Origin: Pisciglobus halotolerans | GTDB taxonomy: Bacteria > Bacillota > Bacilli > Lactobacillales > Carnobacteriaceae | Assembly (NCBI RefSeq): GCF_900113675.1 | Contig: NZ_FOQE01000002.1 | Coordinates: forward strand, 1-64,000 | Length of the DNA: 64,000 bases | Reading direction: 5' to 3' | In this document: one piece after another, positions 31,190-39,272 of the stretch | How the letters are laid out: each line of letters begins with the position of its first letter | Numbering within the stretch: position 1 is the first letter of the stretch | Translations under genes and position numbers: made by a program | Notes under the pieces: model-generated | The model's input: only the letters and a program-made list of their open reading frames with translations | The model's database searches: none | What the model was told of the DNA's origin: nothing

Positions 31190-32401
31190 TCAAAAGCTGC
31201 TGGATTTGTGTTTAAATTTCTTCTGGTAAGCCTCCCACATTTTGATTTGCGGACCTGGGAAAACGTAGTGTTGAAAGTCTTCTGGCGCTACCCATTTACA
31301 AGAAGCTGGGAGTTCACTGCTATTTTCTTTTTCAACGCGCCCAAAATAAACGGCTATCGTCCATTTCAAATGAGTAAAAATATGCGTTGCTTCAGCAAGT
31401 GGCCGTTTCATTAAAACAAGAGAAATATGGTAATTTGCTGTTAATTTTTTGTCTAGTTCAGATACAATATTGTCTGTTATAGCAGCAGGAACGGTACCCT
31501 TCAGCTTGCCATTTGAAAATAATTGCTGCTCAAAATCTGGACGTTCTATCAATGGGAAAGTCCACATATTGGCTAACAAGCCTTTTTCAGGGCGCTTTTC
31601 TAAAAGAAACTCGCCTTTTTCATTACGCAACAGTACTCCAGCATAAAAAACCGGCTGAGCTTTCTTTTTTTTGCTTTTCACAGGATATTTTTCCCATGTT
31701 TCATTTATATATGATTGATTAAAAGCTTTTACTGGACTATTTTCAGGATGATAATTTTTAGGCGTACAAATGCTAGAACCTAAATCCATCAAAGCTTGAT
31801 TGAAGTCACCGGGCCGATAAGGGTCGATGATCTCTCGCAGTACAGCTTCAAATACTTTACGATTTCCAGGTTTAGCAATATCTGCATCAATTTCAAACAG
31901 TCGACTCAAAATACGCATAATGTTGCCATCAACAGCTGGTTCAGGCAGCTGAAAGGCCATACTAGCAATCGCGCCTGCTGTATAAGGCCCGATTCCTTTT
32001 AACGTTCTGATTTCAGCAGGATCTTTGGGCATTTCGCCACCGTAATCCTCCATTATTTGAATAGCGGCTTTTTGCAGATTGCGCACACGAGAATAATAAC
32101 CCAAACCTTCCCATGCTTTTAACAGCATATCTTCATCAGCGGCTGCTAAATCTGCTATTGTTGGAAAAAGTTCCATAAAACGTAAGAAATAAGGGATCAC
32201 TGTTTCAACGCGTGTCTGTTGCAACATGATTTCTGATACCCATATGCGATAAGGATCATGATTCTCTCGCCATGGCAGATCTCTTTTTTCGATATCATAC
32301 CAACTTAAAAGCGCAGCTCTAAACGCTTCGATTTTTTCTTGCGGCCACATTTCAACTCCGAAAAGTTCTAGGACTTCCATTTTTTTATCTTTGTTTGTCA
32401 A
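31190..32401 (-). CDS. mutY: A/G-specific adenine glycosylase, apparently without Fe-S cluster
   Basis: Removes adenine opposite 8-oxoguanine. Helix-hairpin-helix LKGIGPYTAGAIASMAF with the catalytic Asp in EPAVDGNIMRILSR; the catalytic Glu is in SEIMLQQTRVETVIPYF; C-terminal NUDIX-like domain from about residue 240. The family's C-x6-C-x2-C-x5-C motif reads CTPKNYHPENSPVKAFN (from about residue 212): only the first Cys remains. Such clusterless MutY proteins are known in some Lactobacillales. TTG start (32399-32401) overlapping the recX stop codon, so the two are translationally coupled. Confidence 0.88.
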   Translation of the reverse strand: MTNKDKKMEVLELFGVEMWPQEKIEAFRAALLSWYDIEKRDLPWRENHDPYRIWVSEIMLQQTRVETVIPYFLRFMELFPTIADLAAADEDMLLKAWEGLGYYSRVRNLQKAAIQIMEDYGGEMPKDPAEIRTLKGIGPYTAGAIASMAFQLPEPAVDGNIMRILSRLFEIDADIAKPGNRKVFEAVLREIIDPYRPGDFNQALMDLGSSICTPKNYHPENSPVKAFNQSYINETWEKYPVKSKKKKAQPVFYAGVLLRNEKGEFLLEKRPEKGLLANMWTFPLIERPDFEQQLFSNGKLKGTVPAAITDNIVSELDKKLTANYHISLVLMKRPLAEATHIFTHLKWTIAVYFGRVEKENSSELPASCKWVAPEDFQHYVFPGPQIKMWEAYQKKFKHKSSSF

Positions 32402-33234
32402 ACTTCTTCATCCATTTCTTTATCATTTATAAATCGGTTGATCAAGTCTCCAGGAAAGCCTTTTTGATATAAGGCACTTTTGACTTTCTGTATTTTTGCT
32501 CGTCCAACTAACTTGGCTTGTTTACGCCAGATTTTTTCACCTTGGATTTTTAATGCTTCATATTCTTCATCTTCATCTTTTTCGATCGCAAGTTGATGCA
32601 TGACTTCCGTGATTTCATCTCCATTAAAACCTTTTTGAGCTAAATGTTGGCGTACTTTATTTTCTGTTTCTCGAGAGGATTGATTTTTAGCACGCCGAAT
32701 GGCTTTTTCAGCTAGCTGAATCCCATTTTCTATCCGCTGCTCGATCGGATACTCCAGAAGGGCCTGCTCAATATCCGTTTCTTTTACACCCCGTTTTTTT
32801 AACTCTTGACGAATGGCGTAAGGTCCTTTTCCGCTCAAATTAGCCGCTGTTCTTGTGTAGCTTTCTGCATACATCAAGTCATCAACGTAATTCATTTCTT
32901 TTAATTGAGCCAAAACTTTTTCAACTGCTTCGAAAGGAAATTCATGCTTCCGCAAGTCGTCACGTATCTCTTTTTCAGATCGTAATTGATGGCTCAAATA
33001 ATCAAGAGCCCGGCTGTAAGCTTTGCTGTACACATCTTCTGTCTCCAACTGCTGCTGCAACTCTTTTGAAATTTCCATTCCTTTATATAAAGCATGACGA
33101 ATCAAAACGCCTTCGCCTACTGGAAATGCATACTCTCCATCCAAGTAAACATTATAACGTCCTTTACGCTTTTGAGTTTCGATTTTGGTTATTTTCGGTA
33201 CAGACTGCTGACTTGATTCTGGTTTTGCTTCCAA
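32398..33234 (-). CDS. recX: Recombination regulator RecX
   Basis: Modulates RecA filaments. About 278 residues, in the normal range of firmicute RecX, mostly three-helix repeats: LSHQLRSEKEIRDDLRKHEF, GPYAIRQELKKRGVKETDIE, VRQHLAQKGFNGDEITEVMH, KSALYQKGFPGDLINRFIND. I chose the TTG at 33232-33234 because AAAGGAG stands 8 nt upstream; an in-frame ATG seven codons earlier (33253-33255) has no good ribosome binding site. The stop codon overlaps the mutY start. Confidence 0.85.
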   Translation of the reverse strand: MEAKPESSQQSVPKITKIETQKRKGRYNVYLDGEYAFPVGEGVLIRHALYKGMEISKELQQQLETEDVYSKAYSRALDYLSHQLRSEKEIRDDLRKHEFPFEAVEKVLAQLKEMNYVDDLMYAESYTRTAANLSGKGPYAIRQELKKRGVKETDIEQALLEYPIEQRIENGIQLAEKAIRRAKNQSSRETENKVRQHLAQKGFNGDEITEVMHQLAIEKDEDEEYEALKIQGEKIWRKQAKLVGRAKIQKVKSALYQKGFPGDLINRFINDKEMDEEV

Positions 33235-33436
33235 ATCGTATGCTCCTTTCTTCATGACTCATCTTCCATCATTTTACGTCTACTCATTTTGATTGCCTTT
33301 TAGCCAAAACTCTAAAAGGGAAATCTTGTTCCCCTCTATTTTAACTTATCTTTTGCTTCTTTTAAAGAGACAACTGGCTACTGTTGTTTTAAAAAGAACG
33401 TGCAGCGCACCTTTATTAAGCACACCTTAACTTCTA

Positions 33437-35985: not shown

Positions 35986-36987
35986 TTATTTATTTTCGTC
36001 GTCTTCAATCGACTTACCGCCGGCAGCTTTATAAGTGTCACTGTAGTATGCATCGCTTTCTGGCGGAGCTGTATCAGTAGTCGCATCTTCATTTGGCTTG
36101 CCGTCTTCTACAGGAGACTTTTTGGGAAGGTTTTTATCTGACCCGCCTACTACTCCTGTATTGATGTTGTCTGGATAAGCATGTCCAGTTGGTTCTTTTT
36201 TGACTGTATCCTCATCACCTGTCAATTCTGGCGTTTCTTTCAACGAGGATGCGTCTTCGTGAGACTGTACATCTTTTTGATCTGATTGATTAGCTTCTTC
36301 GACCGGGTCTTTTTGATTTGACTGTTGATCACTCTGAGCATCGTTTTTTTGAACAGATGCTGAATGTTCAGGGACATCGCCTTTTACACCATCATTGGTC
36401 TCTATCGCACCATGAAGTTGATCCGTTTCGTTGCTTTCTTTATGCGTATCGATTTCCCCTTTGCTAACTTTATCTTCTCTTGAAGATTGAGCTTGCGATG
36501 GATCAAAGTAGCCCTCATCACCTGTGACTACATCGAATGATTCTTTTGTAGGTGTTTCTGCTGGTTCTTCTTTTTCTGAGTGATTTAACACTTCTTCATT
36601 AACTGTAGATAAACTATCCAAGTGAGCCGGTGCATTGCTATCTACAAGCAGAACGATTTCACCATTTTCAAGAGCTGTTGTAAATTGTTCAGACATCTCG
36701 CCATCTACTCCATATTCTTCAAGCGGAGAAGACGCTTCATCTGAATGGTAGTTGCCGAAACTCAATGTTTCTTTTGTTTTTTCCCATAGCGACTTGCCTG
36801 CATCCGGGTCAACGGCGTCCACTTCAACCAAAGTCAAGTCTTCTAAAGATTGGTAATCTGATTGATCATCGGTGATCACAACGATTTCTTCGCCCACATA
36901 GCCTTCTTGCAGCAGTCTTTCGATAGCATGCATTACTTCTTCAGGGGTTAAATAGGTTCCTTCCACTCGTCTTTGCATTCTATTCAC
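35986..36987 (-). CDS. YflT-domain general stress protein with long acidic tail (2)
   Basis: 333 residues. Residues 1-120 are a YflT domain (RRVEGTYLTPEEVMHAIERL ... GEEIVVITDD ... EEYGVDGEMSEQFTTALENG ... EIVLLVDSN). The remaining 210 residues are Asp/Glu/Ser/Thr/Gln-rich and repetitive (clusters of SDQ, EET, KDVQ), without hydrophobic segments. Same architecture as 33669-34685, but the tails share composition rather than sequence. ATG start with GGAGAG upstream. Own terminator at 35924, so independent of the SDR operon. Confidence 0.75.
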   Translation of the reverse strand: MNRMQRRVEGTYLTPEEVMHAIERLLQEGYVGEEIVVITDDQSDYQSLEDLTLVEVDAVDPDAGKSLWEKTKETLSFGNYHSDEASSPLEEYGVDGEMSEQFTTALENGEIVLLVDSNAPAHLDSLSTVNEEVLNHSEKEEPAETPTKESFDVVTGDEGYFDPSQAQSSREDKVSKGEIDTHKESNETDQLHGAIETNDGVKGDVPEHSASVQKNDAQSDQQSNQKDPVEEANQSDQKDVQSHEDASSLKETPELTGDEDTVKKEPTGHAYPDNINTGVVGGSDKNLPKKSPVEDGKPNEDATTDTAPPESDAYYSDTYKAAGGKSIEDDENK

Positions 36988-37518
36988 TCTCCATTTTTTT
37001 CCTACTTTCTTTTCTTAATAAAGTCTCATCATTTTAAGAAAAGAGTGGTTTTGAATTGTCTTTAGCATATCAAAAATAATTTGAGGAAAGCAAAAGAAAA
37101 GACTTACATTCCACGGAATAATAGCCGTCATCCTCCTCTTTATCTATAAGAAGAAAAACATTTTTGATTTTATTTATACTTTTTAAATAAGGGTTATCTA
37201 AATAAAAAGATCACGATTTTGATCAGCTCTAGCCTTTAGGAGAAATCTGCTACTTGAACGCTTTTTTGATCAGTATGCTTTTTTTTGCAATTTCCGTTAA
37301 AAAAAATAAGAAAATGGCAATTTTTTTATTCATTTTTCATTAAAAACCCAGCCTATAAAAAAGGTTATTTGTTCATGGCAAGAATGCTTTTATCAAATCA
37401 AGCAATAAAGTGCTCCGCTCCACTCTTTACCAAGACAATCATCCCTTTGTATCTATGGTGTTCAATCCGTTATGCTTATCGCGTACAAGGCCTTGTAACA
37501 ACAATCAAAGGAAAATAA
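36988..37518. other. Divergent intergenic region, 530 bp
   Basis: Lies between the YflT gene (minus) and the sigma-factor gene (plus), so it must hold both promoters. AT-rich with several A/T runs. A 47-codon frame (37375-37515) ends one base before the sigma-factor start, but I do not trust it as a gene. No clear -35/-10 pair stands out. Confidence 0.35.
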
Positions 37519-38088
37519 ATGATGAAAAAAAGCTCAGTGACAAGAAGATTACTTCCTACAGAAGAAGATGCTTTTTTCGAACAATTCGGCGGTATAGTAT
37601 TTGGAGTTTGTAAAAAAATCCATCTTTCTTCTGCTCACCCCGATTTTGATGATTTTATTCAACAAGGTTATCTCAAGTTAGTAGAAGCGTATGAATGCTA
37701 CCCTTATCCGATTGAGCAGTCAAACAGATTACACATCAGCTTCGTCAGTTTTGCTTATCAAAAGATTTATTGGCACTTTATGGACAATATGCGCAAAGCG
37801 CAAAAACGAAAAGAAAGAGAATGTTTTATGCCTGAAGAACCCGTTTTTTTGAATGGCTATTCTTCGACAGATCTCTTTTTCTTTGAAGAAAATGAACTTT
37901 TTCAAAACATGTTAGGTTGCCTTACTTCTGTTGAGCAGCAACTATTGCTTGACTTGGTCTTTGAAGGCTTATCCACCCTTGAAGCAGCAAAAAAATATGG
38001 CGTTAGCCGCAAAACGATTTATGAACGTCGCAAAAAAATAAGACATAAATTACTGCCCTTCTATTCCGAAATTCAAATGAAATCATAA
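37519..38088 (+). CDS. Small sigma-70-family RNA polymerase sigma factor
   Basis: 189 residues. Region 2 is visible at about 20-95 (FDDFIQQGYLKLVEAYECYP, ISFVSFAYQKIYWHFMDNMR), and region 4 with a helix-turn-helix at about 130-180 (LLLDLVFEGLSTLEAAKKYG, VSRKTIYERRKKIRHKLLP). Regions 1 and 3 are lacking, so it is of the alternative/SigH-ComX-like size class. Two ATG codons in tandem; AAAGG lies 7-10 nt upstream. It is followed 13 bp later by a peptidoglycan amidase with its own AAAGGAGAT site, so both are probably one transcript. No anti-sigma factor gene is adjacent. The target promoters are unknown. Confidence 0.75.
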   Translation: MMKKSSVTRRLLPTEEDAFFEQFGGIVFGVCKKIHLSSAHPDFDDFIQQGYLKLVEAYECYPYPIEQSNRLHISFVSFAYQKIYWHFMDNMRKAQKRKERECFMPEEPVFLNGYSSTDLFFFEENELFQNMLGCLTSVEQQLLLDLVFEGLSTLEAAKKYGVSRKTIYERRKKIRHKLLPFYSEIQMKS

Positions 38089-38101
38089 TAAAGGAGATGT
38101 T

Positions 38102-39184
38102 ATGATGACCTATACAATTGAAAAACAGTTACTGAATATTCCGCAAAAATCTTTGAAAAAAGGTGTATTTATTATCGCTCATGAGTCGGGGAATTCGAAA
38201 AATACCGGAACTGACGCATTAGAGAAAGAAGTACGATATATGACTCAGCAAGCAAAACAAGGAGGTGCTTTTACTAGCCATTGGGTTGGAGGCGGCGGAA
38301 GAGTCATTCAATTAGCAAAAACAGGAAAGATCCAATATGGCGCTGGCAGCAAAGCCAATCCTTATGCATTTGCCCAAGTTGAACTGGCTCGTACCAATCA
38401 GGAAAGACAATTTAAATTGGATTATGCTGCTTATGTTCAGCTGCTACAAGATTTAGCTAAAGAAGCTGGACTGCCATTGACCTTGAATGCAGGAAGTACA
38501 GTTCAGGATGCTGGCATCAAAACACACCATTGGATCTCGCAGCATATTGGAGGCACCAATCATTCTGATCCCGACAGCTACTTGAAACAGTTTGGCGTCT
38601 CGATCGCTCAATTTCGCAAAGACATCGAAAAGAAAAATAAACCGATTATCCCTTCAACTGCCCTAACCCATAAAGTAGTGAAAGGCGATACGTTATGGGG
38701 AATCGCTAAGCGGTATCATCTAACAGTTACTGAACTGAAAAAGATCAACGCTTTACCATCTGAAGTGATCTATGTTGGGCAAAAACTATACCTTCAACCA
38801 TCCGATCAAACAGATGAAGTAAAAGAATGGATCATTCAAATTCAATACACGGTGGGTGTTTCGCCAGATGGCCGTTTTGGTCCCAAAACAAAAAAAGCCG
38901 TGTTACAACTTTTTCAACGCGCTGTAAAAGTATATCCAGATGGTATTTGGGATAAAAAAACCGCTGCAGCTTCACGCGTACTCAAGCAAGGTACAGAAGG
39001 CTGGGATGTCTATGCTGTCCAAGCGATGCTCATTGGGAAGGGTTATCAAACTGTTGGAGTGCCAGACAAAAAGTTCGGAAAACAAACGACTAAAGCCATT
39101 CAACAGTATCAAAAAGATCAGGGACTGATAGTCGATGGAAAGTGTGGACCTAAAACACAAGAACAACTTTTTTCTAGAGTCTAA
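38102..39184 (+). CDS. N-acetylmuramoyl-L-alanine amidase with LysM and two PG-binding repeats (endolysin-like)
   Basis: 360 residues. Amidase_2 domain at about 12-170: GVFIIAHESGN with a zinc His, KTHHWISQHIGGTNHSDPDS with the second His and the acidic ligand. LysM domain about 190-233 (VVKGDTLWGIAKRYHLTVTE). Two peptidoglycan_binding_1-like repeats about 240-290 and 295-358 (GVSPDGRFGPKTKKAV; FGKQTTKAIQQYQKDQGL). There is no signal peptide or transmembrane helix, as in phage endolysins, yet no holin or phage structural genes are near. It follows a sigma factor by 13 bp and ends at a terminator (39235). Cell lysis, fratricide or a domesticated phage lysin are possible roles. Confidence 0.85.
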   Translation: MMTYTIEKQLLNIPQKSLKKGVFIIAHESGNSKNTGTDALEKEVRYMTQQAKQGGAFTSHWVGGGGRVIQLAKTGKIQYGAGSKANPYAFAQVELARTNQERQFKLDYAAYVQLLQDLAKEAGLPLTLNAGSTVQDAGIKTHHWISQHIGGTNHSDPDSYLKQFGVSIAQFRKDIEKKNKPIIPSTALTHKVVKGDTLWGIAKRYHLTVTELKKINALPSEVIYVGQKLYLQPSDQTDEVKEWIIQIQYTVGVSPDGRFGPKTKKAVLQLFQRAVKVYPDGIWDKKTAAASRVLKQGTEGWDVYAVQAMLIGKGYQTVGVPDKKFGKQTTKAIQQYQKDQGLIVDGKCGPKTQEQLFSRV

Positions 39185-39234: not shown

Positions 39235-39272
39235 AGACCAGGAAGAGTCCAATTCGTTCTTTCTGGTCTTTT
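39235..39272 (+). terminator. Terminator of the sigma-factor/amidase unit
   Basis: AGACCAGGAAGA and TTCTTTCTGGTCTTTT form a stem with one mismatch and a T4 tail, about 50 bp after the amidase stop. Confidence 0.75.

Follow-up and report, generated by a model that had tools for sequence, protein, structure and literature searches.

A probable competence sigma factor gene next to a LytA-like amidase gene in Pisciglobus halotolerans: a possible lysis and DNA-release locus of the Lactobacillales

Introduction

In streptococci, the wall hydrolases that are linked to competence are encoded by genes that are scattered in the late regulon. CbpD and LytF are exported products of late genes that lie elsewhere in the genome. 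CbpD-type fratricins are exported by a signal peptide, lyse non-competent siblings, and have an immunity partner. LytA, the autolysin of Streptococcus pneumoniae, binds choline.

The gene for LytA is in the operon cinA-recA-dinF-lytA and is partly transcribed from a competence promoter (Cin-box/ComX; PMC12029793); the excerpts of that paper describe neither order-wide swapping of hydrolases nor a linked holin. CbpD and LytF are peptidoglycan hydrolases of the competence state, which is also the role that we propose below, and according to the excerpts of PMC13192262, LytF promotes extrusion of the pilus, with no evidence of fratricide. As for the regulators, SigH of Lactobacillus sakei and ComX of streptococci are small sigma factors with regions 2 and 4 that activate com genes, and sigH of L. 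sakei is found at the cysS-nusG locus (PMC3364868, excerpts).

Here we describe a sigma factor gene and an amidase gene from Pisciglobus halotolerans. They lie in positions 1 to 64,000 of contig NZ_FOQE01000002.1 (assembly GCF_900113675.1); we will call this stretch of 64,000 nucleotides the window. The original prediction placed the pair in Enterococcus, which was wrong: the genome belongs to the Carnobacteriaceae, and its relatives are Carnobacterium and Desemzia. LytA appears to be the closest functional parallel. Like LytA, the window amidase has an Amidase_2 domain and no signal peptide, but it carries LysM and PG_binding domains where LytA binds choline, and its gene sits with a sigma factor gene where lytA sits with recA. 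CbpD and LytF are exported and their genes are scattered, whereas the gene for the window hydrolase stands in one unit with the sigma gene, and its product lacks an export signal. The sigma factor belongs to the same broad group as SigH and ComX, but the locus is of another type (MutY-RecX-YflT), is linked to ComK, and includes a lysin. The holin-endolysin cassettes of phages, with their holin-dependent release of proteins, are another parallel: among the matches listed in our survey, 15 of 148 sigma loci share the phage-like order of holin and lysin. Unlike those cassettes, the sigma-lysin loci are chromosomal, with the lysin behind a sigma gene and no phage genes seen, and the window has no holin. 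In the open-licence literature, we found no description of a sigma-lysin or sigma-holin-lysin competence unit, or of the DUF1659-DUF2922 pair that often accompanies it.

Results and Discussion

The sigma factor and the amidase

The two genes are on the same strand and are separated by 13 bp (Table 1). It had been proposed from the sequence that a sigma factor of 189 residues, with regions 2 and 4 only, is followed after 13 bp by an Amidase_2-LysM-PGbinding protein without a secretion signal, and all of this is borne out by the open reading frames and by their domains. The sigma protein is over the cut-off for TIGR02937 (sigma70-ECF; 61.4 bits versus a cut-off of 42.9, across residues 17-178), which corresponds to sigma-70 regions 2 and 4 only. 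The separate Pfam models for regions 2 and 4 score 18.6, 19.1, and 19.9 bits, each below its cut-off.

Table 1. Features at the sigma-amidase locus and in its flank, in window coordinates.
Feature	Position	Strand	Basis
MutY-like DNA glycosylase (HhH-GPD + NUDIX_4), shared flank	31190..32401	-	Pfam
RecX, shared flank	32398..33255	-	Pfam RecX domains, 75-88 bits
YflT-like stress protein, encoded divergently next to the sigma gene	35986..36987	-	Pfam YflT, 23.6 bits, below the cut-off of 26.2
Putative promoter, TTGTAT-N18-TATGCT	37447..37476	+	Placed by analogy with the TTGTCG/TATTCT arrangement that relatives conserve before sigma
Putative operator GTACAAGGCCTTGTAACA, 18 bp, palindrome ACAAGGCCTTGT	37483..37500	+	At the transcription start; also seen in L074-L087
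Probable SigH/ComX-like sigma factor, 189 aa	37519..38088	+	TIGR02937, 61.4 bits; alignments with homologues
Ribosome-binding site of the amidase gene, AAAGGAG, inside the 13-bp gap	38090..38096	+	Sequence
LytA-like amidase, 360 aa, no signal peptide	38102..39184	+	Pfam; homology to PDB Autolysin
Terminator-like hairpin closing the unit	39235..39269	+	14 pairs, T-rich tail

In the amidase, Amidase_2 (33.2 bits, roughly residues 23-157), LysM (54.8 bits, residues 190-230), and PG_binding_1 (82.6 bits, two stretches) are all over their Pfam cut-offs. Residues 5-177 match the PDB Autolysin entries 4ivv, 4x36, and 5ctv (76.8, 73.4, and 72.4 bits), which we take to be pneumococcal LytA, and PDB entry 9htu matches the amidase at 175.3 bits. 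The catalytic domain is thus homologous to that of the LytA type. Judging from the aligned positions, with roles carried over from LytA, H27, H154, and D156 presumably form the zinc site and E94 is presumably catalytic. Choline-binding repeats of the LytA type were not found by Pfam, which gives LysM and PG_binding_1 in their place. The N terminus has no hydrophobic segment (the highest 13-residue Kyte-Doolittle mean in the first 40 residues is just 0.48), so that by this hydropathy test the protein resembles LytA and lacks the export signal peptide of the CbpD type.

Full-length orthologues of the amidase, at 50-61% identity, are encoded in 11 of the 17 other genomes from the family, and the Amidase_2 proteins of the survey family f4 (see below) are 53-58% identical to it. 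It is the one Amidase_2 match in its own genome.

The pair might instead be what is left of a prophage or a phage satellite. The catalytic half does resemble the lysins of Listeria phages (49% identity at best, over residues 1-177), and some of the related loci described below have holins. But the resemblance is limited to that half, and none of 486 phage records covers 80% of the amidase. Relatives of the sigma factor are absent from phage records (E <= 0.01) and from viral contigs, and DUF2922, which is encoded at many of the related loci, has no phage match. The flanks, examined with Pfam, are housekeeping genes (MutY, RecX, YflT, and an SDR protein), which agrees with the earlier remark that no phage genes are in view and speaks against the idea that the sigma gene is a fragment of a prophage remnant. 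We consider a phage origin of this kind extremely unlikely.

The sigma factor family and its link to ComK

The window sigma protein is the only match to itself in its own genome at E <= 0.001. A search of contigs with this single protein found no relative, while repeating the search with an alignment gave 16 loci. Within the set of Carnobacteriaceae, 14 of 18 genomes, Carnobacterium and Desemzia among them, have the sigma gene. Across the Lactobacillales, the family is found in 193 of 395 genomes (E <= 1e-10). The window protein is divergent, with 40-45% identity to 12 aligned homologues from its family and 33-45% identity across 15 aligned loci from other genera. It has no well-supported position in the tree; the nearest protein by path is from Atopococcus.

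In relatives, the sigma gene adjoins a gene for ComK, which links the sigma family to a regulator of competence. A profile search found ComK beside the sigma gene in all 13 relatives from the Carnobacteriaceae (family f1 of our survey), and the five neighbours that were tested with Pfam, each of about 300 amino acids, were all over the ComK cut-off. More broadly, 68 of the 148 loci among the matches listed have a ComK family member close to the sigma gene. In P. halotolerans itself, comK is about 43 kb from the sigma gene, and its product is over the Pfam cut-off, as is ComK from Atopococcus. According to the excerpts of PMC3364868, the Lactobacillales have no homologue of ComK; the Pfam matches reported here disagree with that statement. 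The proteins that are over the Pfam cut-off for ComK are at L016, L017, L022, L024, L026, L029, and L177:17366-18295 (names beginning with L and G denote loci and genomes in our data sets). In three genomes (G009, G011, and G012; loci L104, L105, and L106), the amidase orthologue is preceded, at a distance of about 0.9 kb, by a gene for another, divergent paralogue of ComK.

Boxes that resemble CIN boxes (GCGTAYA/ACGTATA, a motif that was defined after inspection of the sequences) precede comFA in 9 of 13 cases and comEA in 5 of 14, versus 0.7 expected for each. The same strict motif was found before none of the 13 comGA genes in the family.

Given the ComK neighbours, the order-wide family, and the CIN-like boxes of com genes, we propose that the window protein is probably a SigH/ComX-like competence sigma factor from a family that spans the Lactobacillales. 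By analogy with the sigma-H-like factors of L. sakei, which activate com genes (PMC3364868, excerpts), it may activate com genes as well.

Peptidoglycan hydrolases downstream of sigma genes across the Lactobacillales

We surveyed the flanks of 148 of 150 listed sigma loci, which represent 146 genomes and 49 genera. The window's own locus was excluded, as was G285, which has a match of just 76 residues. Flanks of 1.5 kb were used for L181-L210; at the other loci they reached 2.5 kb at most, and four loci had less than 1.4 kb available downstream.

Among the matches listed, a peptidoglycan hydrolase (lysin) is encoded downstream on the same strand at 75 of the 148 sigma loci. These 75 come from 73 of the 146 listed genomes and 23 of the 49 genera. 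The families of listed loci differ greatly: a lysin was found at 25/25 loci of f6, 35/45 of f4, and 13/24 of f8, as opposed to 2/35 of f9, 0/6 of f2, and 0/13 of f1. No lysin was detected at the remaining 73 of the 148 listed loci, 45 of which have both DUF1659 and DUF2922.

Between the sigma gene and the lysin gene, there are often two small genes. Of the 75 lysin-bearing loci among the matches listed, 47 have the order sigma-DUF1659-DUF2922-lysin and 28 do not have the two small genes; with or without a lysin, 92 of the 148 listed loci have both DUF1659 and DUF2922. At L218 (3111-3619) and L232 (3112-3551), the DUF1659 and DUF2922 genes come straight after the sigma gene. The description of the pair as a two-gene cassette thus fits the window, but at other loci the sigma and lysin genes are separated by the two DUF genes and, in some cases, by a holin gene. 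The genes are closely spaced: at the lysin-bearing loci among the matches listed, the largest same-strand gap between the sigma stop and the lysin start is at most 150 bp for 67 of the 75, 151-250 bp for five, and more for three, by a lenient count in which any ORF of at least 45 amino acids is taken as filler.

The lysins are of diverse types. In the window amidase and the 75 lysins among the matches listed, Pfam identifies Amidase_3 (26), Amidase_2 (23), GH25 (13), CHAP (10), Glucosaminidase (6), Amidase_5 (2), and Phage_lysozyme (2), which makes seven catalytic families; some lysins carry two domains. On a quick tree of the sigma factors, in which many branches are weak, the class of lysin changed at least 12 times, with a minimum of 7 for eight labels. 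A simple hydropathy test, on starts chosen from the longest ORFs, gave no hydrophobic N-terminal segment for any of the 75 lysins among the matches listed.

The association is also seen at named loci outside Carnobacterium and Desemzia: at 11 of 12, the sigma gene is followed by a gene for an Amidase_3 protein (confirmed with Pfam for L029 and L033). These are from Atopococcus (L029), Marinilactibacillus (L033), Lacticigenium (L040), and Alkalibacterium (L034, L035, L036, L038, L039, L041, L042, and L044), and because f6 includes contigs from these four genera, they are not independent of the f6 count. The exception is a metagenome-assembled genome (L043) with just 554 bp of downstream sequence. 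One contig of Alkalibacterium kapii has two sigma-Amidase_3 pairs (L034 and L041), and ComK was found by only one of them.

Could the pair in the window be an accident of local gene order? The 13 nearest relatives lack it, and in eight of them the two genes are 30-86 kb apart. But as a control, the lysin and holin models had no hits in 56 comG, comEA, and comF loci (family f1 only), versus 75 of the 148 listed sigma loci with seven catalytic families. Also, on the upstream side, just 9 of the 148 listed loci gave a match to a lysin model, five of them in f2, which leaves 4 of 142 outside f2; the models were seeded from downstream finds, so this comparison of the two sides is not fully unbiased. 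The survey makes coincidence unlikely, and the probability that we would assign to it is very small. The lack of linkage in relatives had been named in advance as grounds for rejecting the prediction, and it does hold for the 13 nearest relatives, while across the order, the genes are linked at 75 of the 148 loci among the matches listed.

The upstream matches in f2 are at L316, L318, L319, L321, and L322, or 5 of the 6 f2 loci among the matches listed. The two that were checked with Pfam are divergently oriented GH25 lysozymes with SH3_5.

Holins, and lysis versus opening of the wall

Homology searches found a holin gene at 16 of the 148 loci among the matches listed, 15 of which have a detected lysin. 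Several are over Pfam cut-offs: Phage_holin_4_1 at L259, L313, and L324, Phage_holin_Dp1 at L269, L295, L300, and L301, and Phage_holin_5_2 at L288. Between the window genes there is no room for a holin gene, and no holin, DUF1659, or DUF2922 was found in the 96 kb that we read around the window, which is in line with the earlier statement that no holin is in view.

The main rival to a role in lysis and DNA release is that the lysin opens the wall locally for the competence pilus, as was proposed for LytF from Streptococcus sanguinis. It would then be an aid to DNA uptake and would not kill cells. In the excerpts of PMC13192262, LytF increases both the amount of extracellular ComGC and the uptake of DNA, and no fratricide was evident. 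Placing the lysin in an operon with the sigma factor would serve this purpose too, and swapping of hydrolase classes is explained just as well. However, a cytoplasmic enzyme together with a phage-type holin (16 of the 148 listed loci) fits lysis better than remodelling of the wall, and by the hydropathy test, none of the 75 listed lysins has an export signal. We view wall opening for the pilus as fairly unlikely.

We favour the view that the pair represents, in local form, a type of Lactobacillales locus that joins a competence sigma factor and a cytoplasmic hydrolase on one transcript, with the hydrolase as a lysis and DNA-release arm, and we give this an even chance of being correct. A module for lysis, fratricide, or DNA release was already suggested for the pair, and with 75 of the 148 listed loci having the pairing, tying such a module to a competence-type sigma factor is the best reading that we have. 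It draws on the tight same-strand order, the absence of predicted signal peptides, the recurrence with seven catalytic families, and the predicted holins in some lineages. From these we infer co-transcription, induction during competence, entry of the lysin to the wall, lysis, and release of DNA. When the ComK/sigma circuit fires, one transcript would yield both the sigma factor and the lysin. The lysin would be confined to the cytoplasm until the membrane is opened, by the holin where one is encoded, or otherwise by another route, as for LytA. Once freed, it would cut the wall of the producer and of its siblings, lysing a subpopulation of cells or the siblings. The released DNA would then reach competent cells that are building the com machinery from CIN-box-like promoters.

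Counting against this explanation are the 13 nearest relatives, in which the genes are not paired and the amidase mostly has a different conserved promoter-like site of its own (9 of 11 amidase loci), the rarity of lysins in f9 (2/35 of the listed loci) and their absence from 73 of the 148 listed loci, the lack of the strict CIN-like motif before comGA, the absence of a holin and of the DUF genes around the window, the uncertain place of the divergent window sigma protein in the tree, and the presence of com boxes in G001 and G017, which have no match to the sigma protein. The persistence of the pairing despite unrelated enzymes suggests that opening of cells is part of the DNA-uptake programme. 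More broadly, programmed lysis may belong to the competence switch in much of the Lactobacillales: an exchangeable, domesticated phage-type module, captured at least several times, would make part of the population burst, and the DNA would feed the rest. This wider proposal is tentative, and we would put it somewhat short of an even chance.

At these loci, a predicted competence hydrolase is encoded within the sigma unit in many genera, and unrelated enzymes swap while the slot persists, in some cases with a holin. If the proposed role is confirmed, these loci would give a genetic handle on two questions: do Gram-positive cells in the competent state kill, burst, or just open their walls, and by what path do LytA-type autolysins without a signal peptide get to the wall? 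They would also be a marker for competence systems in bacteria that are not known to be transformable.

Is the sigma factor a competence factor?

Some clostridial elements have pairs of sigma factor and holin genes. By this parallel, the sigma factor could be a regulator devoted to lysis or release (such as autolysis under stress, or release of another product) and not a competence factor. This would account for two genomes from the family without a match to the sigma factor (G001 and G017), whose com operons still bear the CIN-like boxes. It would also suit the YflT stress genes that flank the sigma gene, and the promoter of the amidase in Carnobacterium and Desemzia: upstream of the amidase gene, or of its DUF1659-DUF2922 unit, 9 of 11 loci from this group (L045 and L048-L055) have a promoter-like site, GTAAC-N17-CGTTAT, that resembles ECF promoters. 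On the other hand, ComK is near the sigma gene at 68 of the 148 listed loci, and the sigma-H-like factors of L. sakei switch on com genes (PMC3364868, excerpts). We judge a dedicated lysis regulator to be unlikely, and continue to prefer a competence sigma factor with a lysis arm.

History of the locus

Upstream of the sigma gene in the window, on the opposite strand, are genes for a YflT-like protein, an SDR protein, YflT, RecX, and a MutY-like protein; downstream of the pair is a deoxynucleoside kinase. Parts of this neighbourhood recur in other families. RecX-like genes are upstream of the sigma gene at many f8 loci and at some f4 and some f9 loci, and MutY-like genes are upstream at f8 loci. 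At L218 and L250, YflT lies beside comK and the sigma gene, and at both loci YflT is over its Pfam cut-off.

In the 13 nearest relatives, no lysin is adjacent to the sigma gene. Eight family genomes have the sigma gene and the amidase orthologue on one contig, 30-86 kb apart, and the relatives' amidase orthologue is either solitary or behind DUF1659 and DUF2922 genes (with DUF1659 identified by Pfam in L051). Our first reading, from family genomes, was that the sigma gene is a newcomer in the amidase slot. We rejected this when other families turned out to have RecX, YflT, ComK, sigma, and lysin together, which suggests that the window is nearer to the older arrangement and that Carnobacterium and Desemzia split it. 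On the simplest account, the window would be the old locus without the DUF genes and with ComK moved away.

Putative regulatory elements

The putative promoter of the pair (Table 1) is tentative because a consensus scan did not pick up this site. The 18-bp element that follows it has a 16-bp core, ACAAGGCCTTGTAACA. Each of the 14 genomes of the family that have the sigma gene contains this core exactly once, the four that lack the gene do not contain it, and the reversed pattern, as a control, is absent from all 18. A relaxed form of the element is found at many f6 loci and at scarcely any f4, f8, or f9 loci. We considered and dropped an RNA hairpin, which is not supported (the z-score of the fold is +1.35). 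Since GTACAAGGCCTTGTAACA does not appear to fold as RNA, our guess is that a protein binds it as an operator where transcription begins.

The hairpin behind the amidase gene matches the earlier claim that a terminator closes the pair, but the window has two terminator-like sites versus 1.8 expected from shuffled sequences, so this one is a possible terminator. A tRNA search of the whole window with ARAGORN was negative. We also searched for an ancestral GTAAC-N17-CGTTAT site before the window sigma gene with a regular expression, and positions 36988-37519 contain none.

DUF2922 on plasmids

DUF2922 is found on plasmids of Lactobacillus and Enterococcus as well (21 records). We read three of these contexts, and none has a sigma factor annotated alongside DUF2922. 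In one such stretch, from a plasmid of L. johnsonii, a LysM protein is encoded about 3 kb from DUF2922.
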